A program made the position numbers and the translations under genes. Below the pieces are notes generated by a model. The model was not told where the DNA came from, made no database searches, and saw only the letters and a program-made list of their open reading frames with translations. A DNA stretch of 64,000 bases, taken from NCBI GenBank assembly GCA_000310025.1, contig FN649731.1:348564-412563 (forward strand), given 5' to 3'. Positions 1 to 30,135 of this stretch are shown here, piece after piece. This stretch comes from Ectocarpus siliculosus. Taxonomy: Eukaryota > Sar > Phaeophyceae > Ectocarpales > Ectocarpaceae. The first letter of the stretch is position 1. The number at the start of each line of letters is the position of its first letter.

Positions 1-778
1 GGGGGGGGGGGGGGGGGGGGGGGGGGTCGTGAATGCAAACACCACGTACACATGCGGTGAAAAAAGTGCCGCTTCGTTGACTGCGTAGGCCTCGGCCCCC
101 GGGAGTTTGACCTCAACACGCAAATCGGTCAAGACGGGGCGCCGCTCTCAGCCCCGCTTCAATAGGTCGGCATGGCAAGCATTCTCGGGAAAGGGCATCA
201 ACGGGACGGTTCCAACGCCGCCATGATCGGCACCGTCACTACATTTCTCCTTTCCAGCGAAACCGAGCTTTGAAAACTGGTCCACGGTCAACCCACGTTC
301 ACACGCACAACAGAGAAGAAAATTAGTTGTTCCTTGTTGAGGCACCAGGTGTGGAACCATAAACGCAAGCGCACACTACACACCCACACAACAAACAACA
401 AACAATTGTTCATTTCTTAGGCACGGGGGTGCGGTACTTCGCCCAACATGGAAAACTAGTTCATAATGGTATAATTTTGGAAGACAACTCTTCTCGCATA
501 AAAAATGGAAGGCAAAGCACCTCAGGAGGGGGTGGGTAGGGGACCTCAGGTAGAGGAACCCTTCTGTGTGACCGCGGGTTGGAGTATACACTGCGCAAAT
601 GCTGTGAGCGCAAATTTGAAATCAAGACAATTAAAAAAAAGGAAAAGGTGTGGCATATTTCGCAGCCTCTACCCTACACGCACACAACATATAGAAGAAA
701 TTCGGAAGGCAACCATCCCACCTTCTCTTACACGCGCACACACAACACAAACGAGCGTATCAAGGTATCCACCCCCAC
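1..778. other. Contig edge and DNA downstream of the last visible bZIP exon
   Basis: The window opens with 26 consecutive G, probably an assembly edge or homopolymer. On the minus strand this stretch follows the donor of the bZIP exon at 779, so it should be intron and possibly later exons. I found no in-frame continuation of the leucine zipper here. Part of it (about 505-640) resembles the 3' half of the poly-A SINE at 26337-26629. Confidence 0.5.
505..640 (+). mobile_element. Degenerate 3' part of the tRNA-derived SINE
   Basis: The stretch shares several blocks in the same order with 26520-26625: an A-rich block followed by GAAGG, a G-rich block, the block TCTGTGTGACC(A/G)CGGG, and an A-rich tail. 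The tRNA-like head is not recognisable, so this is either a truncated copy or a diverged family member. It sits in the presumed last visible intron of the bZIP gene. Confidence 0.45.
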
Positions 779-2088
779 CTTCTCCTCCAGCAGCTCGAGG
801 TGCTCCTTCTTGCGGCGTCGTGACTGCCTCGCGCTCTCACGGTTCCTTGCCAGCCGCTTCTGCCGCCTCTCGTCCTGTCGCAACGAAAAAAAACAAAACA
901 AAAAAAGAAACATACAAATACACAAGGCGTTTAGAATGGAATGTGTGTACAAGTCCTGTCGCCACGAAAAACAGAAGACACAAAAAAGACACATACATAA
1001 GGCGTTTAGAGTGGAATGTGTGTACAAGTCCTGTCGCAACGCAAAAAAAGCACAAAAAGGCACATAAATAAGGCGTTTAGAATGGAATGTGTGTACAAGT
1101 CCTATCGCAACCAAAAAATGTCGGAACGAAAAAAAAGCTACACAAGACACACACGGCGTTTGGTGTACAAAGCTAGACCTGCGTGCGCACGAGGAAGAAG
1201 GCAGGAGAATGACATCAGGCACGCGTGTAGTTTTGCCTTCTGAGACACTGCTGCTGCTGAACAACCCATGTAAAACACCACGAACAGCAAAACTGCGTAG
1301 ACCTACAGGTACGCGAAATAAGCGAGATACCAACATCGAGAGAATCCGTTGCCATGTATGCTCATGGCCATCACCATTTCTACACGGCACAAGACCATTC
1401 TCGCTTGAGACGGGACAAGCATAACGGGAGAGATGATGGATTCAGCAACGCGTGAGAACATGCTGGGTGCTCGTCGTCGATTCAAAACTATGTTCGTTAC
1501 TAGAAAATCGACCAACGCTCCCAAAACAGAGCTTGCCCCGGATTATTGTTGCAGCGAACAAAATGCGACATCTACACCAAGACCCATTCAGCAGGCTTTG
1601 AGAGGGAGAGGGATGGTACTTGCACTGACGCCTACGGTCGCCGCAGCTTGTGCTTGCGAAAGCTACTTGGGGCTTTACAATCGATACAATCCTCGTGGCT
1701 TCGGCATCTCGAAGGAAATGTCAGGATTTTTCTTGCGAACAAGCTGCACCGCAAATTCTGGCAAACACAACTCAGGATGTGCTGTATCATGAGCTGTGAT
1801 ACTGTCCTTTTTGTTGGGTAACCGCCCTTGACTCATGGGATTTCGTTGCTTCGCCTTAGAGAACGGTAGTAATCGTACAAGGAGGTGCTGGAGGACCTCT
1901 GCATGACGTAGCGTGATAACAACAGCAACTACAGCAACAACGATGGCATCAACAAAAACAACTACAAGAAAAAAAGCATCGTCAACAACAACTTGGGAGC
2001 AACAGCAAACACACTCTGTGGGCCCCCACCTGAGTGCCGCCCCCTAGCCCCGAAGACTCAACCGCGTTTCGCTGTTGTTGTTGCTGCA

Positions 2089-2133
<45 letters not shown>

Positions 2134-2525
2134 AGTGACCACGAAAGCAGTGCCAGCAAAAACACACCCGACGGACAAAGAAGACACAAAAAGCGCCCCG
2201 TCTTTCGTTTAGATTCACCATCAAGATTAAAAAAACAAAATTCGATTGTGTACAGGCAAGTGTCGGGTCTTAACGGCGCGCTTCTCCGCTCATTGCTTTT
2301 CTTGTCACTCGGCCATTGGTCAACACGTCCCCTCTTTCTCGAGAGAGAGGGAGGGGAAGCGATTCCCACACAGAGATAGCGTGAGCATCCGGGTGCTCTC
2401 GACGACCTGTTCGCTAGCGTGCGGGATGCTGCCTACCAAAACGAGCAATAAATCTCACAAAACCGAAGTAACCAGTGCACGCATGCAGAAACTTGGGGTC
2501 GTGTGTAGGACTTCGGTGTATCATG

Positions 2526-2571
<46 letters not shown>

Positions 2572-4672
2572 CACCAGCAAGGGCACGACACAGCAGCGCG
2601 CTTGGAACGGCGGACGCACACGGTGCTCACCCCCAACGTTGTACCCCCGTGGGGGGGCGACAACCGACGCCCCATCGGCGTAACGCCAGCGGGGGGATGG
2701 GTAGCAGAAAAGCCCGCAGCAGCACCGCTAGCAGCAAGACCGGCAGCGCCGGGGCTCCGCGGTAGCCCCTCTACCCCACCCCCAGGCACGCCTGACAGGC
2801 TTGATGCCCTTCCGTGGCGCGGCATGACCCCGCCGATCCAACCCCCCCCGCCGTCCCCGCCGCTGGCCGCGCCCCCCCCGATGGTGGATTCGAACCTACT
2901 AGGCTTGTCTGAGGCGAGCGGGCGGGGGGGGGGAGGGGGGGGTACTCATGTTTTGCATGCCGTAGTTGTTAGACCATAGGCCTCGCATCCCGACAAAGCC
3001 GGGACGGAGCACGCCGGGCTCTCACCGGACCAGGCTCTCTCATCACCAAGCGCGAGGCGCCGTGAGGTATTCGACGAGTCGCATGAAGGGTGCGCTGCAT
3101 CCTACGAAGGGTGTTCGGCATCTTGTGCTTACTTCCTTGCGTACGGATGACAGCTGCGTATAACTTAATTTATTTTCTGGTGCTTTCATTTCCAGAGACA
3201 GTTGTAAGCACTGTGTAACTGCCTCGAGGATGCTTGACCATTTTAACACAACGTGGTGCGATCATCCCCCTTGCGCGGAGTGAGGGTTCTCGACCCCGCA
3301 CAACATGATCTACTCGACCACCATTATGGTTACCGCAAAAAATAACAAACAGAGGCAAAAAAAAAATGGGGGGGGGGGATCATTGAAACCGGTCCCCGAA
3401 AAATGGGAATTAATTAATTCGCCCGTCTGTGTGTGTGTTTCCGTGGAGAATGTTGTCTGAAGGTTGCCGGTATGCGAAGCCCGTCCAAACTAAAGGAACC
3501 CCCGCTTCTCTGCCAACGACGGACCAAAAAATGCCGACGCGAGCAGCAGGAGCGGGTGTAAGCATGGACAACGAGCGCACAAGCAGCAGCGGCACCAGCA
3601 CGCCCTACACAGTGGTGCTCACCTTCAACCCCTTCCATTGCTTCAACCCCGGATGCGTTTCCTATGCCGCGGGGCCGCGGGCCTAGCAACTTCTTGGGCA
3701 TGCCGGCATGAGCTCCTCCTCCCCCTCTCTCCACAGCAACCGCAGCAGCCGCAGCCGCAGCAGCAGCAGCATTCCCGAAGTTCTCCGACAGGCTCGGTAT
3801 GCTGCCGCTGTTACTCGTGTTTCTGGAAGAAAGCCGTGCGGGAATTTCCCCCGAAAAAGCAGCAGCAGCAGCCGCGCCCGGTAGCAGTCCCGCCATCGAT
3901 GGCAGCGGTGACGCTGGCGCTGCTGCTGCTGCTTGTTGTGTTATCGTTTCCAGGGCCGGGTTGTACGACGAGCGGTACTGTTGCTGTTGCTGCTGCTGCT
4001 GTTGCTGCAGCCCTCCACGCCGTTGAGTTGCCGTCACCGCAGACGGTAGGTCGGGGGGGGACGACGAGCGACGAGAGTCGCTGACGACGACAAGCACGCG
4101 GCAACAGCAAATCGGACGAGGGCGTGGCACAGGACACAGGAAGAGGCAGAGCACCAGTACGTCAGGGTCACCAGGCAGGTACTCGGCGAAAAAATCATCT
4201 GAAGAAGAGGGGTTTCTTGAACGGTCCCGAATCGAGTCTTTTCGCACGACAGCTGACATTGACCAGTTTCCGCGTGTCGACAGAAGCAACACGGCTGAGA
4301 CTATTGTAATACCGCTCACTTCTGTATCGTGATATCGTGTTGAGTGAACCAGGAACGGGCACAGTCCAAGTGACGCGCTACTGCACACGAAACTGGCTGC
4401 TTTCAAAAGCATGTGTGTGTGCGTGCGCGCGATAAACTTCGTTCATTAAGTCCACAATCGTCGGGATCATACATACATACCTGACTCCGCCGCCGCCAAC
4501 GCCGCCGCCGCCGCTGCTGTTGCGCGACCGGGTGGTCATGCCACCACCACCACCACCGCCATCGGCAGGGGGAGGCGAGCAGATGATGTCGTTGGTGGTG
4601 TCCGATGCCGTTGTCGTGGTAGTCTCGAGTCCATCCGGCGAAAGGAAGAAGCTCAGCAGGTCTTGATCGTCC

Positions 4673-4709
<37 letters not shown>

Positions 4710-6382
4710 TTATTACCATCGACCACGCCAACCGGCTGACCAATGAAAAAAATTAAAAGCGCCGCTGAACAATGAAAGCACTTCGAAAAGGCCATGATCT
4801 GGGGCCCCGTGTGAGTGCGTCGTCATTGGACAGGCTAGGCGATAAAATGACATGTGTTTGTGTGTGTGTTTTTAGCCTAACGACTGCGGTATTGTTGTCA
4901 GCGCTGCTTGCAGCAGCGTTTGGTTTCAGCAGGGCATGAGCACGAAAGAGACACACAGCACAAGCATAAATCGAAGACAGACCACACACATTGCCCCGTC
5001 AACGTGTGTTTGCATTCCACAGGCCATGGGGGAGCAAAAAGACGGCAACAGATGGAGGCAAATCAACGCAGGTTGTCTACCGAGGTTTACTCGTGTTCTG
5101 TTGGCTCCCTCGTTGTCTTGTTGCGGGCGCTATCATCCTCCTTGGTTTCCGTGTTATCATCCTCGTTTGTATTATGCAAAAAGCGTCTACAAGACATGTA
5201 TTTCTTCTACTCGTATATGGTAACCCCAAAAGCGACAAATAGGTTTCAGTATGGTACTCGACACTGAGCACATGTTCTTACGTTCAAGGTCTTAAGTTTT
5301 CTTAAGGTCCCTCAGGTTCTTGAGAGCGGTGAAGTCTTGGGTAAAATCTTGGCGTGTTCTGTCCTTCCGGTGTTTCCATGGGTGGAAGGAATGGGCTGGT
5401 AATGGAACGCGTGGAGAGATGAGCAGGGTTGAAACTCTGCACCTCTTGCTCTCTGCCGCACCCCCTCCTCCACCTTCGTTACTGCTCCACCACTCTCTCC
5501 TCTTCTCTTTCGTCAAATCATTGGTTTCCTCCGTGCCACACCATCATGCTCCTTTTTTCACCAGCGCTCCGCCCTCCTTTCCGTGTACTCCTCCATCATA
5601 CTGCTGTACCCCCTCTTCAAAACCACTTCGGCGTATTCTCCTACCTCCTACCCTTTCCCGTCGCACCAACATCAGCATGAACCCCCAGCAGCCAGTTGGC
5701 TCTGGCGGGGCTCGATCCACTACTACCCCACTGCCTCTGTGTGTTTGCCGTTGTCGCAGCAACGCCGGTGCCCACACGCGAGAGTGTAAGCAACAATGAC
5801 AACAAAGCACGACGGCACTTGAAATAAACGCCGCAACAGTCCTGATACGGCAGGTACCGGCAACGGCAACGGCGGCTCTACATCACGATTATTGCGGCCG
5901 GCAGCCTTGGATTGCAGGTCCAGCTGCAGTGCAAGCTTTTGGCTGTGTCGACTCCACGTTACATACACCGCTACACCCATCGTGTACAAGGGGTCATGTG
6001 TGGGGCAACACCACCCACCTGCTCCTGTGTGTTCCGAGTGTACATGTATTTTGCATCAGTACAAATGTAGGTGTAACCAGGGAGGGGGCAACCAACGCGT
6101 GTTGAAGATCGGTGCATATGGCCGGGAAGCACAAGACATACACGCCACCCAGCCCTAGATGCAAGCCGGCCGCGTCGCAGCCCGACTGGACAGCCACGCA
6201 GCAGTGGAACCCCAACCTATTGTCAATCGAGAGACATCTTTTTCTGCAAAGGCGGCGGCGGCTGGTGCTGGTGCTGGTGCTGTGTACATACATCGAAGGC
6301 AACGACAAACCAAACAAACCTGGTCGGGGGGTTGAAGGATAGCATCGAACAAGTCCTCCTCGTCCTCCCCGTCCACGTCCAT
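779..6382 (-). CDS. bZIP transcription factor, five exons, 3' incomplete
   Basis: Exons (minus): 6382-6320, 4671-4481, 4080-3623, 2908-2631, 874-779, with phases 0/0, 0/2, 2/1, 1/0 and 0/0, which all agree. The start ATG at 6382 has an in-frame TAG three codons upstream. The protein opens with an acidic stretch (MDVDGEDEEDLFDAIL), then Thr/Gly-rich, poly-Gln, poly-Ala and Gly-rich segments typical of activation regions. The last visible exon encodes a bZIP basic region with the N-x7-R signature (NRESARQSR) running into the first zipper residues (HLELLEEK). About 362 codons are visible. A nuclear DNA-binding role follows from the family; target genes are unknown. The rest of the zipper must lie beyond 778 or outside the window. 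A (CA)n tract and a G-headed repeat sit directly against two of its splice acceptors. Confidence 0.8.
875..1170 (-). repeat. Minisatellite (71-75 bp) that copies a splice acceptor
   Basis: Units begin near 924, 999 and 1070, with a partial copy near 1154. Each full unit carries GGCGTTTAGA, TGTGTACAAGTCCT and a GTCGC-plus-poly-A block. On the minus strand that last block reads poly-T, GCGACAG, GAC: the same sequence that forms the acceptor of the bZIP exon at 874. The third copy has CTATCG and so loses the CAG. Confidence 0.85.
2071..2133. repeat. (GCT/AGC)n microsatellite
   Basis: About 17 tandem GCT triplets after a short GTT block, in the bZIP intron between 874 and 2631. Open frames through it are only homopolymer runs (poly-Ala, poly-Leu) and are not taken as coding. 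Confidence 0.9.
2526..2571. repeat. (CAG)n microsatellite
   Basis: About 15 CAG triplets in the same bZIP intron, some 60 bases past the donor at 2630. Apparent poly-Gln and poly-Ser frames here are not joined to any exon. Confidence 0.9.
2927..3064 (+). mobile_element. G-headed tRNA-like repeat, copy 1
   Basis: A run of G is followed by TACTCATG, a tRNA D-arm-like core (GCCGTAGTTGTTAGACC), CCTCGCATCCC, then GCCGGGACGGAGCACGCCGG and a TCTCACCGGACC block. The same order of blocks recurs at 15868-16020 and 22766-22880. The core resembles a tRNA A box (TRGCNNAGYNGG), while the B box is poor. I take it as a tRNA-related SINE. Its G-rich head abuts the acceptor of the bZIP exon at 2908. Confidence 0.6.
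4676..4706. repeat. (GT/CA)n microsatellite at a splice acceptor
   Basis: About 14 GT dinucleotides. Read on the minus strand it is (CA)n running to within a few bases of the CAG acceptor of the bZIP exon at 4671, in the place of a normal polypyrimidine tract. Confidence 0.85.
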
Positions 6383-9300
6383 CCGATCCTAACACCGAAC
6401 CGACAACAGGAAACTCGTCGTGCCGCTCCCTGTTGACGCTCTCGTCAGAGTTGGTGCTCCGCGTCCGCGCCCCCGACTTCACTTCACTCGGCAGACGTTG
6501 TGGATGTAGGTGCTGTAGGGCGCATGGGGGAGTTCGACAAGAATTTTCATGCCGTTTTATCGAGGGGTTGCTGCTCATGTTTCTTTCTTGGCAAAGCAGC
6601 CGGCAACAGCCGGCGCCTGTCTCCGGGGGGTATGAAGGACCAATCGGTGCGTGCCTCTCAATCGCTAACCATCGCATCGACCGGCAGGTGCTACCATGCG
6701 ATATTTCGATATAGAAAAGCATTTGTAGTGTAAGTATATACCTGTAGCACACGGCAGTAAAACGCTGACCAGTTGTTGTGCACGACGTACATAGGGTACA
6801 TACAGTACAGCAGTATAGTCAGTACTGCGGCGATTGATGCCGCTCTCGCGAAGAAAAACAATCGGTATGTGCATATGCATACGCAATGCCGCGCATATTT
6901 TGTAGAAGGGACAGCAGAACAGGGGAACGGGGTGTTTCATTCCGGCAGGCGGCTTTGTTTTCAATCAGCAAGAGACTAAAGGGATCCTGTGGTTTTAACC
7001 TGTGGGACACAAAATTTTCCCGCATCCAATCCGTTGACGGGTGACTACCGTATATGACACAAAAGAACACACCCCCTGGACCAATTTTCAAAGCTCAATT
7101 ACGCCACGACGAAGTGGATGTGTAAATGAAACAATCGAGACAGCTTCAACGCCACCGTTTTCGGCGCTGTGACTCTTTCTGGTGTTGAGAAATCGAGATT
7201 TGAAAATCGGTCCGGGGTGTGTGTCATCTTGTGTCATTTACGGTACTCCGCAGGTTGCGCAACAAATAAAGTCAACTGATCACTGAAATAAAGTAGTCGT
7301 GACCCCCTGTATATTTGTTATTTTGCATGGAGGGTGCGCATTGAGAAAGAAGGGAAGCGAGGCACACACTACTACACACACTCGCGACCGAAAGCTGTGG
7401 CCGAAAGCTGTGGCATTCAGCGTCTGTCTGTCTGTGAGAGCAACAACTCGTGAGAAAAATGTCGGACAAAATGTCTTCCTGTGGTCGGTTTTTACATATT
7501 TTTTGCGAGTCCGCAGCAGCAATCGATCGGGAGACCAACCACATCACTGCAAGATCCAAACCTGTAACGTCCGGGAGCACCAAGAGGTTACCCGTCAAGC
7601 TAGACGTGGTCGAATGTGAAATCCTACACCTCTTCCCTGTGTGTCATGTGGTCGGCTCTGTCGACATTGTCTCTCCCGCCCTGAATCACAACATCGCCTG
7701 TCCCCACCCTACCACACCTGACCTACCTCCTGCGCTGCGATCTTGAGACTTCCATCCAGCCGAAGAGAACAACGTGGTGAGTGTTTCTTCTTACCCAGAT
7801 ATATTCAGTTCCCATGAACGCTTTACAGCAGTACTGTAGGCACTTCGTCGTGATGCTTTCCATCCCGAAGGGGTATGCTTTTTCCTTGTGGACCTTTGCG
7901 TGTACCTTGCCACAGCAATGCCCTTCTTTCAACGCGTAGAGGTGATGATGCTCGCCTGATCCCGGCTCTGTTTCAATAGCTTTTTTTTTGTGTTATTTCT
8001 TGGCGTCGCTGCTTCATGATCGCTTTCTGTTCGGTTTTATACGAGTTCTTTTGTGGTTTTAGATTGTTTCCGCGGAAGAACCGTACGACTGTGGAAGCCA
8101 TCATGAAGTACCATGTACTATTTCTCTGGTGTGTAAATGCACAACCGGAAATCGCGTATATGTAAAGGTATCATGCGAGATGGGATCAAAGACATCCAGT
8201 TCCACTACTACATGCTGTTGTTTTGCGTGAACATTCTTTCACGCGACACACCACAAACAGGGTGGGTTCGGTTGTAGAGTCGGCTTACCTGCTGCCAACG
8301 TAGGAAACTGCCCATTTGCCAAGGAAAAGCGTAGAGCAGCAGACCTACCGACGGGTACTCTTTAACTGCGGGGCTGCGGTCGAACCGGTAAAGTATGCAT
8401 CCCTCCTCCCAGAGTTGAACGCCGCGCCAGGACTGTGGACGTTACCATCATCGTGAAATGGTTATTTTTCTTCCTTCCCCGTTGATGGCGGCTTTCTGTC
8501 ATCAGTAACTGTCGAGAGAGATCTTGCTCAGTCAAGTTACTTGCTCAACATGCCTCCCTGTGGGCCCTCCCAAAAGCGAGCACCACCCCAGACACAAAGG
8601 CTGACACAAATATTGTGGACATTGGCCAACTTGGGCGCACAAACGCCGGTAGATCGATCGGCAGGGTGTGTCTCCCAACACCTGAAGAAAGCACTTTCGA
8701 CCATGCACACGCACGTCTCCTTCTCTGGCGTGAGACCGAATGTCGTACAAGACTGGTCTGTCGCTGGCCTACAGTCCCAGGTGCTTGAGACTGGAAAAGT
8801 GGCGGGGGGGCTCCACCAGATAGATGCTGAGTCGTTATTGTTGCCTCTCAGTCTTCTCTACTGGATGGAGTGGCCGAGACAATACTGGGGTAGGGAACAG
8901 TGGATACAAATACTGACAACAAGCATTGCTTGGGTAACTTGTCCCATCTTGCAAAAATGTTACTGTACTCTGGTGGGAATCAGTCGGCGTTGAACAAGGC
9001 AGTGACAACCGCTGCGACGGGTTGAAACGTTTGGAAACCTCCGTGAGGGGCAGAAAGGAAACAGATTCCTCGCACTGCCACAAACTGCAGCTCAAAGCTA
9101 CTTGTCCTCTGTGCATGTTTTGTGGAGGACATGGAATAGAAAGAACTGGATGCAAACAAGAAGACATAGTGAGACGGAATCGTCCCGGGCACTCCACAAG
9201 CGCCAACACATGCAACAAAAAAATGAATAGAACAAGCCTGTAGGGGGCAAGGGCGTGGTCTATGCCTAACATACACCAATGACCTGCTGTACATCGGAAC

Positions 9301-9419
9301 AACGAAAGATAACAACACGACAGGACGAGCAGACTATTGATAACAACTGCTGTACACGCTAATGGCCAGAATCAGCCAACATCCACCTCCTCCCCCGTCA
9401 CACCCAACTAAACCAGCAG
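6383..9419. other. Intergenic region, no supported gene
   Basis: Lies between the bZIP start (6382) and the stop of the glycosyltransferase-like gene (9420). It should hold the bZIP promoter and the 3' UTR of the neighbour, but I see no convincing signals. It contains a small inverted-repeat element (7037-7247). A short plus-strand frame at 9022-9243 has clustered Cys/His (CPLCMFCGGHG) and could be a relic of a transposon zinc-binding protein, but nothing joins it to other exons. Confidence 0.5.
7037..7247. mobile_element. Small inverted-repeat (MITE-like) element
   Basis: The arms at about 7037-7102 and 7187-7247 are near-complementary. The left arm reads ACCGTATATGACACAAAAG then CCTGGACCAATTTTCAAAGC; the right arm reads the complement (TTTGAAAATCGGTCCGG, then GTGTCAT, then TTACGGTA). 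The interior of about 85 bp has no frame. A motif like the inner arm (GAGCTTTGAAAACTGGTCC) also occurs near 264-282. No clear target duplication was seen. Confidence 0.6.
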
Positions 9420-12400
9420 TCATGCGTCTTCAGGTCTAAAGTCGATTTGCCCGTTCGAGCACGTCCCTCCCTTCGAGAAAAAGTCAAGGCCATCCTGCAA
9501 AACCTGCGCCACTTCGAAACTGCTTCTTCCGCCCCGTGTGGGTCCAGCGGAGTCGTGGTTGCGCAGTAGCGCCGGGTCCACGGCGCATGTAAACCGTGGC
9601 TTGACCAGAGGGATGTCCCATATCGACACTTCCTTGAAGAGATACTCGGAAATCCATGCCTGTGGATCGAGGAACCACACCCCTTCCGGCTGTCGGGAGT
9701 ATTGGAGGGCTGCAAGGGCCTGGGGAAAAAGAGGATACGCAGAAAGAGAGGCAGGGGAAAACGTACTGGTGAGATTTGTCTCCAAGACAGGCTTGACGCA
9801 GACATGGTAGAGCTTGCGTCACGAAATATCGTGGAGGAGCACCAGAGGTCTATCATTTGGAAAACGGAGTGCTGGGCAGTTTTCTGAAGGCTATCGTCAA
9901 CCGGTTTGGGATGTTGTATGAGAATTATCATTCCGATGAAGAGGGGGCACAACCAATGGTGGGATACAACGGCCTCCTTTTATGTGTCGTACAGCAAGCA
10001 GCTTAGAATTGTCTTGAAGTTCTGACGATGTACCGCTCAGTCTTGGCCTTCGCCCTATTTTCCGGACGAAGTGCTCCTAGCGGGTTGGACACTTGGAAAA
10101 TTCCTTTCGCGGTGCCTGCCTAACCTAACACACGCCCACCCATCATCGCATGGGCGAGACGACGCGGAAACAAACGCTCGCCGCACCTGAGGAACCGCAG
10201 CGAGATCGTCGAGGCCCGCCAGGGTTTGCACGGCCTGCTGGAAGGCCGCCTTGTCGCCCTTAGACGCGAACAGGTCCCGCAGGTCCGCGTTGGCACCAAC
10301 CGGCAGCATCAGGTCCGTGCCGAACGTGAACGACGGCGGAAGCGGCACGGTCGGTGGCGCCGCGCTGCCCTCGGACAACGCCAGCACGGAGGCCGTCTGC
10401 TTCGCCAGCTGCGCGACGTGGTGGCTCGCCCTCGCGCTGCTGCTGTGCGCGACCAGGAGGTCCCCCCTCGGGGAGTGGGTGTCTTTCGAGGTTAAGGGGC
10501 GCGAGAAGGTGGAGCCTCGGGTGACGTACATGATGAGGCTAGTGGCCTTGGTGCCGCCGCAGTACCTGTCGGCGTAGAGACTCGCCGTCAGGGCGCTGGG
10601 GGTGCTGGCCACTGTGACGCCCGGAAGAGAGCCGACCGCCCTGCCGCGATGGAGAGGTGGGCGAGGCGAGGGGGAGGGGCAGAGGGAGAGGGAGAGAGGG
10701 AAGGAGGGAGGGAGGGAGGGAGAGAGAGCGAGAGAGAGAGAGAGAGAGGGAGAGAGAGAGAGAGATAAATTTTTGCAGAGGTGAGAGCGAGGATGAGGTA
10801 GGAAACAAGAATGCTAACCGTAGCACAGCGTGAACCCCAACAACAATATCGGGATGCGCACAACAACACCAAGTAGACACAAACGAACGACGACAAGAGA
10901 GAAAACCACGACCATGAGGAGACGGCAAGAAAGGTGCGTCTGGAGAGATACACATAGCTCATGGCAAGGCACAACACGTACCATTCACCACGTTCACGGC
11001 CGACGCGTACTTTCTCACCATTCGTACAGATGCACCGCGTCTTCTTCCGCCGCCACGGCAACCCTCATGCCAGGGGCGAACTTCTGGATGCTCGACACCG
11101 TCACGGCCCACTCGTCCACCTCGCCCGCGCGCCCGGCGATGAAAGCGCACAGGGAGCCGTACGCGACGTCCTCGGTGAACGGACTCTTGGCCGCCTGGGC
11201 GAACGCGAGCGCCTGCTTGTCGGTCGCGCCGGAGGGGGCGGAGTGCCGTGCCGACGAAGGCAAAGCCCCCGTCGATGCGCGGGGAGCGCTAGCCATCGCC
11301 TCGGGGGAGTCGGCCAGGCGGCGCGAGTACACGTCGACCGGCAGCGACTCGTCGACCAGGCGGCGTGAGTACACGTCGACGGGCAGCGACGAGTCGACCA
11401 GGCGGCGCGAGTAGACGTCGACCGGCAGCGACGAGTCGACCAAGCGGCGTGAGTACACGTCGACGGACACCGACGAGTCGACCAGGCGACGTGAGTACAC
11501 GTCGATGGACAGCGACGAGTCGACCAGGCGACGTGAGTTCACGTCGACGGGCAGCAACGTGTCGCACCTGCCATGCCGTGTTGGTTCAGGAGCGGAGGTT
11601 CGAGGCAGGTCGAACAAGCAGAGGGAGCGAGATATTGTTTTCTTCCGCCACACCTCTTTTGAGTTTCCCTCAAGAGTTAATGAAACTCTTGTGCACGTGT
11701 GGTGTTTTTCTGATTTTCACTTCTTGACAGAATCAGCGCCGCGTTGCGCACTGCTCTGGCAGGAACCTGTGGCAGCCGCTAGAGGCTCACACAGAAAAAC
11801 TATGGCCCGCCGGTGGTCGCGCGGGACATATGGTCGGCATCAATGCGAGGGGTGCAGGTAGGGGGCCACAGAAGGGTAACGCTGTGGGCTACAGTAGGTC
11901 TCGAGGGCGGCGACGTCCGCGAAAGTGATGGAAGGGAGTCGAGCGAATGTTGTTTTGGCGAGATATACTCGAGAAAGGCGTGTTTGGCCCTTTTCGCAGG
12001 GTAACAACGTGACTTCCCCCGTGACCACGTGCTCGGGCCCCATTCGCAACAGCAAGAACCTTTCGTCGAAGCACGCAACATCTGTTTTCCTTTGGGGGTC
12101 GGGATGCCGCGCGCAAGCGGCCCCTGTTGTCGTGTGCTTTTTGCGTCAGACAATAAAAGTTCTCTCACATGATGGCGCGGTTGTCTTGTGCGTCGAATTT
12201 GAGAGCACTGTCGACGTCATTGAAGCAGTATCGGCAGTTGCCCCCGTACTGTCCGTCCTCGGTATCGCAACCAAGGAAGCCGTAGGGGTTGCCATCCTCG
12301 CACGTGTCGTCGCACACGCGCCCAGTGGTCCCGTCGTTGCTGGTGTACTCGCAGGAATCATCGCAGCTGTCACGCCATCATAACAGCAGGGGTAGGTAGT

Positions 12401-23900: not shown

Positions 23901-25560
23901 GTCGCCGGCCTCGATCTTGTAGTTGGCCTTCATCGTGCGGACCTGATAACAAAAAACACGTCGCGGGTGAGTGCGTACGTATGCAGCAAGCGCACACGAT
24001 CGTTGGTTTACTTCTACTCATAGAGGTAATGCGGGGACCTTGTGGTTGGCCTGAACATGGCGCGGACCTGAAAAAAAAAACGCAGCGAGCTCGTACGCAC
24101 ATACCTGTGCACCCAAGGCCGCCGGGGGAAGTGAGGGTGGTTGTTTATTTTCTGCATAGAGAACTCGGGGATCACGGTTATTGCGTCCACAGCGTCATCG
24201 CCACGGAAGCCGTCTGCTTCACGGATGGAACCACTTTGGATGAGCCACGGTCAATCGTTTTCCGCGGAACACTGCTGTGACGCATGCAAGCAGAATTTTC
24301 TTCCCAACCAACACACGCGCGGTGATGGGCGGCGTGCGTCGTGCTCTGCGAATGGCGACAAGGGTAGAGGTGGGCCCTTCACACGGCGGTGACGTCCCGT
24401 GTCTGTACCGCCCACTTATTTCTTTTTGACACTCCGCTACGAATCATCTCCAACGGTAGGGTTAACTCCGTCGCCGTTCGGTTTGCCAACCCGGCATAAT
24501 GCACTACGTCTTCGAGCCGTCTGGCCTTGCACGGAATATTCCTTCGGCGGGGGACAAGCTCGGATGCTCAACGTGTGTCTTTCACCTCCGCTCGGTGGTT
24601 GCTACCCGCAAGGCGGCGGCCACTACTTCGCACGGGGCGACGGGAGCAGAAACAAACACCACCCACGCCACTCGCTTGCCAGCCCACGTAGGACGACTTC
24701 GCTGTTGTCACTCTCCCACCCGGACTCACATGCATACGTACTGGTAAGAAGCCGGCATCAGACGATTGGACTACTCAGCGCTGACTAGTCTTTAGGTTTG
24801 GCTTCAGAGTGAAAGTGACGTGTCGTTGGGACCGCACGACAAAAATTTGAAAACGCCTAGACAAACCGTGAGACAGGTAAAGCGCGGACTACCCGCATGG
24901 TCTGATTTCGGCTTCTACAGTGCTTCCATATCGTTGCTTCGCGCTGTCAAGCTCTATCTACCGATTGCTTCGGCAGCACAAAAAATCCGGGGATCCAACG
25001 GGTGCGTACCTACAAGCAGAGCCGGCGGCGATCGGTGGCAGGTGCAGGTCGCGAGTCTTACCCCCCCACAGCCGTCGAAGAGAGCAACAAACCTACAGCG
25101 CAACCCAGATTGACTTCGTCTTTCCTCCCACAAGCAAGCAGACAAAGCGACCTACATGCCCGTCTCGACGAAGCCCCTCACGGCCTAGACGTAATAGCAG
25201 TACTAAGTGGCAGACTGGTCCCTGTCGCCACACATGACATCACTTCCGCGCTAGGACAGTACCTGGCCGTTGTGCAGGGCGGACATGATGAAGCTCTCTG
25301 CGAGGTCGTCGAGGTGTTGGGCGAGGACGAGCTTGTTGTAGCCCTGCTCCCGGCAGCAAGCGTACAGCAGGCCGCGTTTCATCCTGCGACATCGTGTCGT
25401 CGTCCGATGCGAGTTGCGCGTACGGGCAACACGAGAGAGCCCCCAAGATGATTTGGTTTGGCAGGAGTGATAGCAGCAGCAGCAGCAGCAGCAGCCGCAA
25501 AAGCTACAGCTGGGATGGCGAATAGTCTGGCAGTTCGTGCCTTGAACGAAACCCTCATCG

Positions 25561-25596
<36 letters not shown>

Positions 25597-28500
25597 CCAT
25601 CATCATCACAATCATAATCATCACAATCATAATCATCAGCATAATCATCATCATCATCAAGGATGACGGCTAATCTGTTAGTTCCAGCAGGGCCGGAGGT
25701 GGCGATTCCCCGAGGAGCAGGGTTGGAGGGGAGGGGGGGGAAGGGTGATCGTTCAACACTTTCTTACACCCATAGGGCATCTGAGAGACCCGGGCATTCG
25801 ACTCCAGGTAGTCTAGAGCCTGCACGCTTTCGTGGTAAAGCAAGCTTCATTTGAAGTAGGCAGGCAGCCGCAGGGACCTTGGCTTGAGGTTGGTCGGAAG
25901 TCGAAACCGGTACGAAGGCAACGACCCTTGATGTTTACAACGACGCGGGAACGGGAGAGGATGGCCGCTGGCCACCCCCGAGGTCGGCCGAGATAAAATG
26001 TAATAGAGCATGGCGTTGCGAAGGGAGGACATGGCTACCGCCAACAAGAATTAAAATAGGGAAAACGACACAACAGGGTATACCCTGGTCGAAAAGCGAC
26101 ACACCTGGGTACACAGTCATTAACAGCAGTAAATGCACTCATATCATTGGTCAGCGCCCAATTTCACCCCGATGCGTCCGAAAAGGCGCAGGGTATACCC
26201 TACCGTGACTACTTTTCTCAGCAACTGTACCCTGTTTTCGGAGATGTACCCTGACCTGACGGGAAAAAAGACCCCTTCATCAATCATTTCCCCCGCGGGA
26301 ATCTTCCCAACTCCTTTTCCCCTCCACCCATGGGATGTAAGCCGGTCGCCCCGGTGGTCTAGTTGGTAGCCTCGTAACCTTCTAGAGGTCAGGTCAGGGG
26401 TTTGAATCCCGGCGTAGGCGAGCTTTTCTTGCAAAGTGAGTTTTTCTCTCGCTTCCGTTCCTGGCCAAGTGGATAGCGCTAGTGCGTGTGTACACAGAGG
26501 GAAGAGAGTGCTGAACTCTTCTCCCATTAAAAATCGAAGGGAAAGTACCGTAGGAGGGGAGGGTAGAGAGAGGCTCTTCTGTGTGACCACGGGCTGATTT
26601 GAAGTGAAGAACAAAAAAAAAAAAAAAAAGGGATACCAAACGGCGAATCTTCCCGCCGAATAACAACCATGGCAACGGGGGGAATCAGTTTCGGCCCTGC
26701 GAAACAATACCAACCATCACCTCTTCCGCTCTATCAACAATGGCCGGGCAACACCCCAGCGTAGTTGTTCCGTTTGGAAACATGCACACATACATGCGTA
26801 CAATACCCCGTGGACTACAGTAACTGCTTGCTGCAGTCTATGTGCGAGATACACGGGTCACGCTATGAAAGCAAGACCGATCCAGCATGGTTGACATGCA
26901 TATGCATGTGTGCGGGCGTGTGTTGTCGGTTGTGTCTCAATTGCGATGTGCCGTGTGTGCGTGCGTGTGTTGTCTGTTGTGTCTCAATTGCGATGTGTTT
27001 CTTGCTTGAACTACTGCTGTAGCAGCAGCGGTCACGCTTACCAGCCAACCAAGCCGACCAATCAATCAATGTAGTAATAAGACGTCAGGCAAAAAGCGGG
27101 ATGAGACGATAAAATACAACGCGAGCACTCTTTCTTCTTTCTACCGACAGGGAGGGTGATTGAGTTGGACGACACAGCAGTGTCCTGCTGCTAGAGTAAG
27201 GATAAGACTCGTGTGTGCGTGATTGATATGTCAAGGGCATATCTGTGTGTGCTGGTCCTGCCTCTCCCCTCTACCCTCTCTGCGAGCTCGCCGCCAGCAC
27301 AGCGCCACACACTTGGCACACGCATATGCATGTCAACCATGCTGGATCGGTCTTGCTTTCATAGCGTGACCCGTGCATCTCGCACATAGACTGCATAGTT
27401 ACTGTAGTAGTCCACGGGGTATTGTACGCATGTGTGCATGTTTCCAAACGGAACAACTACGCTGGGGTGTTGCCCGGCCATTGTTGATTTAGAGCGGAAG
27501 AGGTGATGGTTGGTGTTGTTTCGGAGGGCCGAAACTGATTCCTGCCCCGTTGCCATGGTTGTTATTCGGCGGGAAGATTCGCCGTTTGGTATCCCATGGG
27601 TGGAGGGGAAAAGGAGTTGGGAAGATTCCTGCAGGGGAAATGATTGATGAAAGGGTCTTTTTCCCCGTCAGGTCAGGGTACATCTCCGAAAACAGGGTAC
27701 AGTTGCTGAGAAAAGTAGTCACGGTACGGTATACCCTGCGCCTTTTCGGACGCATCGGGGTGAAATTGGGCGCTGACCAATGATATGAGTGCATTTACTG
27801 CTGTTAATGACTGTGTACCCAGGTGTGTCGCTTTTCGACCAGGGTATACCCTGTTGTGTCGTTTTCCCATTAAAATATACGGAGTCATCCGGTACGTCGG
27901 GACCCACAGAAAAATCATATCGGCTGTTGTTTAGTGCAACGCCGACGATTCGCAGGCGTGAGAAGTCGGCAGCCTACCTGGCGCTCACGAGGAACAACAC
28001 ACGCCAGTTCGACATGCATACGATCATGTGACAGGTGAGCCGAAACAACGTCTCTGCGTGCGACACGCGGGCAAGCGAATTAATAGCCGTCCGCTGATTT
28101 GTTGAGAGGGAACGGATCGGGAAGAACGTGTATGGCGGCTACACGCTTGGTTCGTTTCCTCGCTCAGTAGAGCACACGCGACCGAAAAATGACACCGGTA
28201 TTGTAGACAACTACGTATTTTTGGGATAGGGGGGCGTCATTGTGAGCGGCACAAGGGGGGAGGATTACCGATCTGGAATCTCAAAATCGTGCATGTACTG
28301 ATAGTCTATCTCATCAATAGTCTATCTCATCATCGCATCACCGGTGGTAGCTGCGCCGGGAAATCAATGCCGTCATCCAGTTTCACAGCACCGGGCATCC
28401 CCAATGAATGATGGGGGCAAGCGGTATCCGGCAGTCGCGTGGTCGTCGACCGTCTCGAGTGCCGAGCCTGCCTCGTCGGCCTGATGGGAGATCACGCCAA

Positions 28501-29942
28501 GAGGAAACTGCAGGAACGAATAAGGCAACAAGACAAGAATCTGGTCTTCCTTGTCTTTTCTTCGTAAATTTACGTGCACTTTCCCCTTGGGGGTGATCTT
28601 CCATCAGGCCGATGAGCCAGGCTGCATTCGAAACGACACACGACTGCCGGATACCGCATACCCTCATCATGAGGGATGCCCGGTTCTGGATGACCGCATT
28701 GATTTCCCGGCGCAGCTACAACCACCGGTTGGGTGTGGCTATTTCATCGAGCGTTGGTCGAAGAGTAGCGCTAGTCCCTCACGAGAGAGGAGGTAACGTA
28801 CAAGCCGAAAAAGCAATCTTGGGGTCGAAGTAACGCTCCCATCGTTGCCCTCTGTGGGACTTGTCTTCCACGTCCTTTCACGGGACTGTTCAACGCTCTC
28901 ATCATCATCATCATCATCATCATCATCGTCATCATCGTCATCGTCATCATCATCATCGTCATCAGCAGCAGCAGCAGCAGCAGGAAGGATGCCGGCTAAT
29001 CTGTTAGCTCGTGTCTTGAACGAAGCCCTTGTACGGCGGGAGCACGAGAGAGAGAGACGCCGCAGGTCTCTCTCGAACGCGCATCAGTTCATGGTGCGCG
29101 CACGAAGAAAAAAGCGACCACGACAATGGCCATCACTCAACATAACTACATATCATACCTCGCGCAGAAGGCACACAGGCTGTCTCCCTGCATGGACGTC
29201 TTGGCCTGCTCGATGATGGGCGAGCTGATGTAGTGCAGCTTCACCCCGAGGCGTTCGAGGTAGGGGATGAGGGGGGATGGGTCGAAGGACGGAGTCTGTG
29301 GGTCCACCGTAGCGCACGCCACCTCAAACCTGTAAAAAAGGCCAAGAGCATGAAAACCATGGTGTGTACGAGGAACGATAGTTCATACGAGTAGCTCGCG
29401 ACGGCACGTATATATGCTACACAGGCAGGCGTTAGATCATTTGCCTTCGTAAAAAAAAAAAACGCGGTGGAAGCGAGGCTTCCACCAATGCCTCTAGCAT
29501 GATCAAGGTTCCGCTCCTGGGTGGCACAACCTACACGCGTCAATCATCAACTTTCATGGTGTGCGAAAATGCATTCCTTTGTCTCGCCCGCGCGGTCGGA
29601 CATTCAACAAGCCTGCGGCATCAAACATGTTCAACTGTGCCCAGTCCACGAGCGGCAACATATCGAGGGGAAAAAATGCTGCATACTTGCGCAGGTTCCA
29701 TCGCCTGAGAGCTGTCTCAAGGAGCTTCCCGTGCACGACAACAAGTTCACTGGTGAAACACGGCGAAACACGGTAAGCGGAAAAGATGATGCGGTGGGAG
29801 CAAGGCCCGTATCTCGGTGGGTCTCTCACGTGATCGGGGCCCGCTTCTGGAGGTGGAGCAGGACGTGCAGCAGGGTCATGGAGTCCTTCCCCCCCGAGAG
29901 ACCGAGGCAGAGCCTGTCCCCGTCCTCGATCATTCTCCACGC
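20945..29942 (-). CDS. TtcA-like PP-loop tRNA thiolation enzyme, 5' exon not found
   Basis: Exons (minus): 29942-29830, 29329-29159, 25383-25263, 23942-23763, 22686-22573, 21370-20945 (stop at 20945); phases 0/2, 2/2, 2/0, 0/0, 0/0, 0/end all agree. The first visible exon carries the ATP-binding P-loop SGGKDS in [19 protein letters not shown]. The exon 2/3 junction builds CAFCARMKRG, followed by [13 protein letters not shown]. Exon 4 has VRVIRPL and [13 protein letters not shown]. The CxxC pair plus the later Cys match the Fe-S ligands of bacterial TtcA, which makes 2-thiocytidine in tRNA. Exon 6 is a low-complexity tail ending in a Cys-containing stretch ([16 protein letters not shown]). The N-terminal exon should lie between 29943 and about 30400. 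Ctu1/Ncs6 is the other possible relative, but the motifs fit TtcA better. Confidence 0.8.
21888..21955 (-). mobile_element. Fragment of the G-headed tRNA-like repeat
   Basis: Reads CCGTCCCGGTAGCGTTGGGA, TTCGAGGTCAACGGTCTACC, ATGGCATGC, then GAGTGCACCCCC, in the same block order as 15868-16020. Diverged, in the intron before the last exon of the TtcA-like gene. Confidence 0.5.
22766..22880 (+). mobile_element. G-headed tRNA-like repeat, copy 3
   Basis: G run, TGTACTCATAGTCGTGCATG, CCGTAATCGTTAGACCATTG, ACCTCGCATCCCTACAAAGC, CGGGACGGAGCACGCCGGG, TTCTCACCGGACCAG. Very close to copies 1 and 2. It ends in a second G run. Confidence 0.7.
22872..22976 (+). mobile_element. Diverged adjacent copy of the G-headed repeat
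   Basis: A fresh G run, TACACACGAACACG, a CGTCGCATCCCTAA block and CGACACGGTGCACTCCGCGG follow copy 3 in the same order. It looks like a second, older insertion into or next to copy 3. Confidence 0.45.
23404..23625. repeat. Two tandem units of about 105 bp
   Basis: Each unit has CGCACAGA, CTTCACCTCCCTGAAG, CCTCAAAAACAC and a GAGA-rich segment. The second carries an extra AGAGAGAAG triplication. In the intron upstream (minus strand) of the exon starting at 22686. Confidence 0.75.
25556..25660. repeat. (ATC/ATA-rich) trinucleotide microsatellite
   Basis: About 35 triplets, mostly ATC with some ACA and ATA. The flanks (GTGCCTTGAACGAA on the left, GGCTAATCTGTTAG on the right) recur around a similar tract at 28900-29030, so a larger segment was duplicated on both sides of the long-TIR element. 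Confidence 0.85.
26050..27877. mobile_element. Long-TIR, MULE-like non-autonomous element with 9-bp target duplications
   Basis: The element is 26059-27868 (1810 bp), flanked by perfect 9-bp direct repeats ATTAAAATA at 26050-26058 and 27869-27877. Its ends are GGGAAAACGACACAACAGGG and the complement. The inverted arms run to about 26913 (left) and 27320 (right) and are almost identical apart from a SINE in the left arm. The core of about 400 bp has no transposase frame; it holds a twofold repeat (about 26911-27000). Long terminal inverted repeats with 9-bp duplications are typical of Mutator-like elements; that assignment is inferred. It lies in the large intron of the TtcA-like gene. Confidence 0.85.
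26337..26629 (+). mobile_element. Poly-A-tailed, tRNA-derived SINE nested in the long-TIR element
   Basis: 293 bp, flanked by 5-bp repeats GGGAT (26332-26336 and 26630-26634). The other arm of the host element has the uninterrupted site (CATGGGATACCAAAC), which fixes the boundaries. The head has a tRNA-like A box (TGGTCTAGTTGGTAGCC) and B box (GGTTTGAATCC); a second A-box-like stretch (TGGCCAAGTGGATAGCG) at about 26463 suggests a dimeric tRNA origin. The tail is about 17 A. Confidence 0.85.
28341..28728. mobile_element. Compact hairpin (foldback) element, about 390 bp
   Basis: Two near-complementary arms of about 190 bp meet near 28545 with almost no loop. The outer ends are CCGGTGGTAGCTGCGCCGGG and its complement; shared inner blocks include GAAATCAATGC, CGGTATCCGGCAGTCG and CATCGGCCTGATGG. 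No frame is supported. In the large TtcA-like intron, about 430 bp before the acceptor-side exon at 29159. Confidence 0.8.
28900..28981. repeat. (ATC)n-(GTC)-(AGC)n compound microsatellite
   Basis: Begins AACGCTCTCATCATC and ends in (AGC)n. The flanks resemble those of 25490-25670 (GGCTAATCTGTTAG; CTTGAACGAA), pointing to a shared duplicated segment. Confidence 0.85.
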
Positions 29943-30135
29943 CTGGTTTCGGTTGCCGCCATGGAGCCAGACCAACAGAACCCGCCAAAATCGACAGCAG
30001 TGGCGCGCGGGGGCAGGTTCAGGTGTGTCTTCGCGAAGAAGCGGTTGTCAGCGTGGCACATTAACCACCACGATTCGTCCCATGAGAGACCGAAGACGCG
30101 TGTGGCACCCCGTTGTGCGGCGTCGGGCGAACAAG

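Follow-up and report, generated by a model that had tools for sequence, protein, structure and literature searches.

An interval of the Ectocarpus siliculosus genome carries two long inverted arms between short direct repeats, and it raises the question of what kind of mobile element this is and what could have moved it, as its core has no visible transposase. The window analysed here, a stretch of 64,000 nucleotides in all (G000:C6:348564-412563), was compared with the 189-Mb genome (492 contigs) from which it comes. The element is interpreted as a non-autonomous Mutator-like element (MULE) with long terminal inverted repeats (TIRs), a deletion derivative of a type of approximately 9.9 kb that was moved in trans, a reading to which a probability of about 0.93 is given.

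The element and its probable intron

The original prediction described exact 9-bp duplications on both sides of inverted arms of about 550 bp, matching almost base for base around a core of some 400 bp lacking a transposase. The duplications (ATTAAAATA) were confirmed, as was the arrangement of arms and core (Table 1), with the termini GGGAAAAC...GTTTTCCC lying directly inside the duplications. The near-perfect match holds over the greater part of the arm but not throughout. The outer block is 26059-26336/27591-27868 (278 nt, 98%), and the inner arms are 92.7% alike with five mismatches and five gap openings over 288 aligned columns. The inner inverted-repeat blocks are 26630-26680/27545-27595 (100%), 26681-26733/27490-27542 (96%), 26733-26791/27430-27488 (100%), 26789-26818/27407-27436 (97%) and 26832-26910/27317-27395 (97%).

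Table 1. Features of the element and of its surroundings in the window
Feature	Position	Strand	Remarks
Whole element	26059-27868		1,810 bp
Left target-site duplication ATTAAAATA	26050-26058	.	exact 9-bp match to right copy
Right target-site duplication ATTAAAATA	27869-27877	.	exact 9-bp match to left copy
Outer left arm (TIR)	26059-26336	+	278 bp; 98% complementary to 27591-27868
Inner left arm	26630-26910	+	pairs with 27317-27595
Right arm (TIR)	27317-27868	-	552 bp, uninterrupted
Core	26911-27316	.	approximately 406 bp, no transposase seen
Palindrome CAGGGTATACCCTG, first GGGTAY half-site pair	26074-26087	.	candidate transposase-binding site
Further such palindrome	26189-26201		other half-sites nearby
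SINE-like insert	26337-26629	+	293 bp, A17 tail, tRNA-like A and B boxes (by eye)
GGGAT, left of SINE-like insert	26332-26336	.	short repeat
GGGAT, right of SINE-like insert	26630-26634	.	short repeat
Putative host-gene open frame with PP-loop SGGKDS motif	29829-30047	-	PF01171 positions 2-26, 20.6 bits, E 4e-4; upstream of element in gene direction
Putative host-gene open frame, next PP-loop piece	25254-25763	-	PF01171 positions 69-119, 25.4 bits, E 1.3e-5; other side of element

A 293-bp interruption of the left arm, absent from the earlier description, was identified as a SINE-like insert; with it set aside, the left arm measures 554 bp, and the uninterrupted version of the insertion site is present in the right arm. 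This sequence is multi-copy, with at least 40 genome matches scored among 1434 candidates (query 26337-26612), and its 39 other listed matches are 92-97% identical to it. ARAGORN identified no tRNA within the window, the A and B boxes having been recognised by eye. Removal of the insert and of one GGGAT leaves 1,512 bp, which is the size of many of the element's relatives.

The two pieces with similarity to PF01171 (PP-loop ATPase) flank the element in profile order along the minus strand, both scoring under the Pfam curated cut-off of 27. Two further exon-like frames had no match in the same Pfam test, and a hand-assembled peptide of three pieces found no counterpart among PDB chains at E 0.001. 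The element most likely sits in an intron of a PP-loop ATPase gene. To that extent the proposed location within an intron of a tRNA-thiolase gene is supported, if unproved; the identity of the enzyme was not confirmed by the PDB search, and the preference for tRNA thiolase over other PP-loop enzymes is a matter of reading. Another inverted-repeat structure, an imperfect one, was observed in the same intron at 28343-28723, approximately 0.5 kb from the element; used as a genome query, its positions 28340-28480 matched only themselves and the structure's own other arm.

Copies, target sites and a long relative

Searches of the genome with the outer arm gave at least 40 matches scored among 194 candidates, and those with the core gave 42. 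The terminal 27-mer, with up to three mismatches allowed, occurs 74 times in forward and 71 times in reverse orientation. A chance origin of the structure is excluded because these 145 termini stand against none in either orientation for the reversed control. The family comprises about 70 copies.

Left and right ends were joined into 43 pairings, 16 through arm matches and 27 through stretches at listed termini. The sample draws on the top-scoring arm matches and, among the 145 termini, on those listed, and it is thereby biased towards intact termini. No pairing was dropped, including three that are doubtful (the outer pair on contig C455, a second left end on C16 and the pair on C14), and for two (L009 and L021) one end was extrapolated from an arm match stopping short of the terminus. 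Exact 9-bp duplications flank 22 of the 43, where shuffled pairing gives 0.82 per 43, and 28 have duplications with at most one mismatch. Copies with such duplications elsewhere in the genome had been proposed as a check on the original prediction, and these counts provide them. Five of the 22 exact duplications are homopolymers and 17 are not; a 23rd (TAATAATTA) is gained if the C455 left end is paired with the nearer right end (L109:49-1542). The remaining 21 pairings are without an exact 9-bp duplication, among them L011, with an exact duplication of 8 bp only, and L024, whose flanks match at none of the nine positions. The exact 9-mers have an A/T content of 95%, as against 54% in 704 flanking bases, so that the preference is concentrated in the nine bases themselves.

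In 13 copies of 1,457-1,518 bp, the aligned arm length is 542-583 columns. Two longer pairs were found, neither of which has a PF10551 match in the genome profile search. One of these, on C120 (8.1 kb), has the exact duplication TTTGTCCTT, and its right arm includes approximately 6.6 kb of foreign sequence. The other, of 6.4 kb on C455, was considered as a long element and rejected, being two separate copies. Four single-arm loci (L048-L051) have no partner within approximately 6.5 kb on one side, and two or more of these loci contain stretches of N. A 433-bp copy (L057, G000:C89:172320-172850) consists of an arm end of approximately 285 bp meeting an opposite one of approximately 147 bp, with no core and no exact duplication. 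Similar frames of 263 and 388 aa, resembling tyrosine recombinases by eye and with no significant Pfam match, were seen at L106 (C120) and L048 (C29); the former lies inside the foreign sequence in the arm of the C120 copy.

A full-length relative was identified on C27 (4263943-4273837; L053:54-9948), with 9,895 bp between the family termini, arms 98.6% identical over 663 columns and an exact 9-bp duplication of its own (AAACAAATT). Its frame 3292-3753 matches PF10551 (MULE) with 46.3 bits against a cut-off of 27.6. This is the one match, among 45 genome-wide, that lies inside a copy with family termini. Such a coding relative had likewise been suggested as something to look for, and the assignment to the Mutator-like group is borne out by the MULE domain between the same termini together with the 9-bp duplications of other copies. 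The family has a MULE-type DDE domain in its full-length relative, duplications of 9 bp, within the 8-11 bp (mostly 9) characteristic of MULEs, and long TIRs, which are usual but not universal in that group.

Merlin-type elements form 8-9 bp duplications and have termini starting with GG. The ends described here start with GGG and their duplication is of 9 bp, once of 8 bp, which would suit such an element. The IS1016/IS1595-type DDE transposase that it would need was not found, however, PF12762 (DDE_Tnp_IS1595) having no match in the genome against the 45 of PF10551, one of them within family termini, and a Merlin-type origin was rejected as exceedingly improbable.

Other frames on the same strand of the long copy look by eye like parts of one transposase gene. 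Many MULE groups have a SWIM zinc finger towards the C-terminus, and a zinc-binding DNA-binding domain at the N-terminus is a further feature of MULEs. Frame 561-1253 contains a CKTC...HVDC stretch, for which Pfam gave only HTH_Tnp_Tc3_2 at E 0.19, and frame 5747-6046 a SWIM-like ECTCSVPSRFHLLCQD (CTC...CQD) with no SWIM match in Pfam. NSAESS in frame 4178-4690 and the basic end of frame 7221-7784 were also recognised by eye, neither being confirmed by Pfam. The transposase exon recurs on C24 at 82% identity, in a second copy with 88-89% identity to the long copy over its inner 8 kb; this second copy has no recognisable right terminus, and its left side ends in unread bases. The last SWIM-like ligand is D, not H, in both copies. 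Third codon positions have no excess of substitutions between the two copies (100-bp windows, by eye), and at least one of them has probably been without coding constraint. An intact transposase gene and current activity are presumptive: because only one transposase copy was found between recognisable termini and no third-position excess was seen, neither copy may be active now. Each arm has an open frame, which in the long copy measures 152 and 165 aa. It was considered as a gene and rejected, as the mismatches by codon position (2.8, 2.3 and 3.4%) give no clear coding signal; the one arm frame tested, from the long copy, had no Pfam match up to E 1.

Internal deletion, arm divergence and candidate binding sites

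Comparison of the long copy with a short one of 1,512 bp (L029) shows that the latter consists of long-copy positions 1-559 joined to 8951-9895. Of the long copy's TIR, the inner part (560-659) survives in L029 on the right (97%) but is missing from the left. This one-sided retention indicates an internal deletion and not an insertion into a short element. A single alignment spans the junction in 12 of the 20 sequences compared, L029 included; with L029 and the long copy left out, it is common to 11 of 18 short or rearranged copies, so that the window copy and 10 of the 17 other short copies compared have one internal deletion in common relative to the long copy. To the right of its SINE-like insert the window copy is 82% identical to L029 over 1,294 columns. 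The counterpart of its core is found in the long element's right subterminal region: element positions 889-1810 align with long-element positions 9000-9895 at 84%, and window positions 27220-27284 match a portion of the inner TIR end of that element (80% over 65 columns). Five further copies (L013, L015, L019, L022 and L024) align on both sides and break at L029 positions 611-618, approximately 50-60 bp beyond the junction; as a guess, they may have the same junction plus a further small loss. L046 and L106 have other sequence at this point, and the eighth sequence that fails to span the junction is the long copy.

The structure of the long copy could also be explained if its MULE transposase were a passenger, part of an unrelated element that inserted into a window-type element of another superfamily. 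The second transposase copy would agree with this, since it has positions 775-8820 of the long copy but not its right TIR. The TIR of the long copy, however, exceeds by approximately 100 bp the arm that precedes the junction in L029. The additional 100 bp are still present in L029 on its right side and would not have arisen by insertion into an element of that kind. Furthermore, the longest word common to the 40 bases around both breakpoints is of four bases, the ends of the would-be passenger have no inverted repeat better than E 0.6, and 9-bp duplications with long TIRs by themselves fit a MULE. A passenger origin is consequently considered very unlikely, and derivation of the short copies from the 9.9-kb type by deletion is preferred.

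The near-identity of the arms had been attributed to a young insertion or to ongoing gene conversion between them, neither of which is supported for the window copy. Its outer arms differ at five of 276 aligned sites (1.8%), which is mid-range among 20 copies (0 to 7%, the rearranged L047 aside), with the target-site duplication (TSD) intact. Each of the five sites has one base or both unseen in the sampled arms of other copies. These arm-private bases, and a SINE-like insert confined to the left arm, give no indication that conversion followed the insertion of this copy.

For the family as a whole, the arms might be identical through ongoing gene conversion and not through recent common origin. 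Several copies with near-identical arms lack a matching duplication (L019, L007, L015, L016 and L024): L019 has no difference in 280 arm positions yet four TSD mismatches, L007 and L015 have one arm difference and five TSD mismatches each, and L024 has three and nine, respectively. In addition, nine of the 20 copies, the window's included, have at least one base that is present in both arms and unseen in the other sampled copies. In the window copy, however, only one such shared base stands against the five arm-private differences and the one-sided insert, and, with 20 of about 70 copies sampled, bases of this kind may derive from source copies outside the sample. Arm divergence and TSD decay are uncorrelated in either direction across the 20 copies (rho -0.18, p 0.45). 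Family-wide homogenisation by conversion is accordingly judged improbable; conversion, recombination between copies or loss of a flank could each explain the copies with identical arms and no duplication.

Seven GGGTAY/RTACCC half-sites were identified in the first 210 bp of the outer-arm consensus (positions 18, 22, 49, 133, 137, 169 and 188), from which the rearranged arm L047_L was excluded. In 500 dinucleotide-preserving shuffles the mean was 0.37 and the maximum two. Arm mismatches amount to 0.8% inside the half-sites versus 2.7% outside. Maize MURA is described as binding a motif of approximately 32 bp in the Mu TIR (PMC3310237), and by analogy with it the half-sites are putative transposase-binding sites.

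In the preferred reading, an ancestral copy would have lost the inside of an autonomous-type element of approximately 9.9 kb in one deletion that kept both ends. The deleted form would then have depended on a full-length relative, whose MULE transposase would recognise the termini, probably through the repeated half-sites, and mobilise it in trans. After excision or copying, the element would be inserted at a 9-bp staggered cut in A/T-rich DNA, and repair of that cut would leave the 9-bp duplication behind. The window copy would have landed in the likely PP-loop ATPase intron, and the SINE-like sequence would have entered its left arm later. A bolder proposal, regarded as rather doubtful, is that brown algae have a MULE lineage of their own. 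Its transposase would bind an array of palindromic GGGTAYACCC sites within the terminal 210 bp and cut A/T 9-mers almost exclusively, one internal deletion would have founded nearly the whole non-autonomous population, and some copies would have undergone homogenisation of their arms.

Comparison with known Mutator-like elements

The kind of element is well known, and the family may be new as far as searched. The literature search, judged partly by titles, found no account of brown-algal Mutator-like elements with terminal inverted repeats. A survey of Ectocarpus lists a single DNA/MuDR family of 56 copies, 42 of them intact, making up 0.13% of the genome (PMC12477816, Table 1). That family is of the same superfamily and is known here by its description; it may or may not be that of the window, because the genome holds another, more uniform MULE family. 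The latter (L035-L045 and further places) accounts for 28 PF10551 matches, all scoring 52.1-52.6 bits; a 233-aa open frame is present in 25 of these, and the family was perhaps recently active. None of 15 MULE loci fetched with approximately 1.5 kb of flank each (L031-L045) matches the window's element.

Pattern and protein searches of viral contigs identified no relative of the element. In the same genome, EsV-1-7 cysteine-rich repeats are greatly expanded: EsV_1_7_cys has at least 150 matches, all over the cut-off, scored among 880 candidates, and was found in 0 of 14 control genomes. The EsV-1-7 domain is described as having proliferated in brown algae and as otherwise occurring mostly in giant viruses (PMC12477816), so that its abundance suits a brown-algal host.

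The family leaves existing knowledge of MULEs unchanged. What it offers is the combination, in one family, of ends, target choice, a probable master copy and candidate binding sites, which makes binding, target choice and recent movement directly testable.

Plant long-TIR MULEs (MuDR/Mu and those of tomato, rice and maize) are alike in their long TIRs, duplications of 9-11 bp and few autonomous beside many non-autonomous copies; their TIRs are said to carry transposase-binding sites, and A/T-rich duplications are listed among them (PMC3310237). Set against MuDR by description, the present family differs in belonging to another host kingdom and in its termini GGGAAAAC with GGGTATACCC palindromes. 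MULEs in general are described with TSDs of 8-11 bp and very variable TIRs (PMC6446971). Algal hosts are likewise those of MULE-Cc of red algae (groups 36 and 38) and of MULE-Diatoms (group 37), compared here by description; for MULE-Cc group 38, 9-bp duplications, TIRs of 244 and 640 bp and a SWIM motif are reported (PMC6446971). A preference for particular targets is described for MuTAnT, MULEs that favour TA microsatellites (PMC4486113), and for guayule and rice elements whose arrays were built through microsatellite targeting (PMC5907723). In contrast to these, the 22 exact sites of the present family are varied A/T-rich 9-mers, ranging from homopolymer to mixed, and not one microsatellite.
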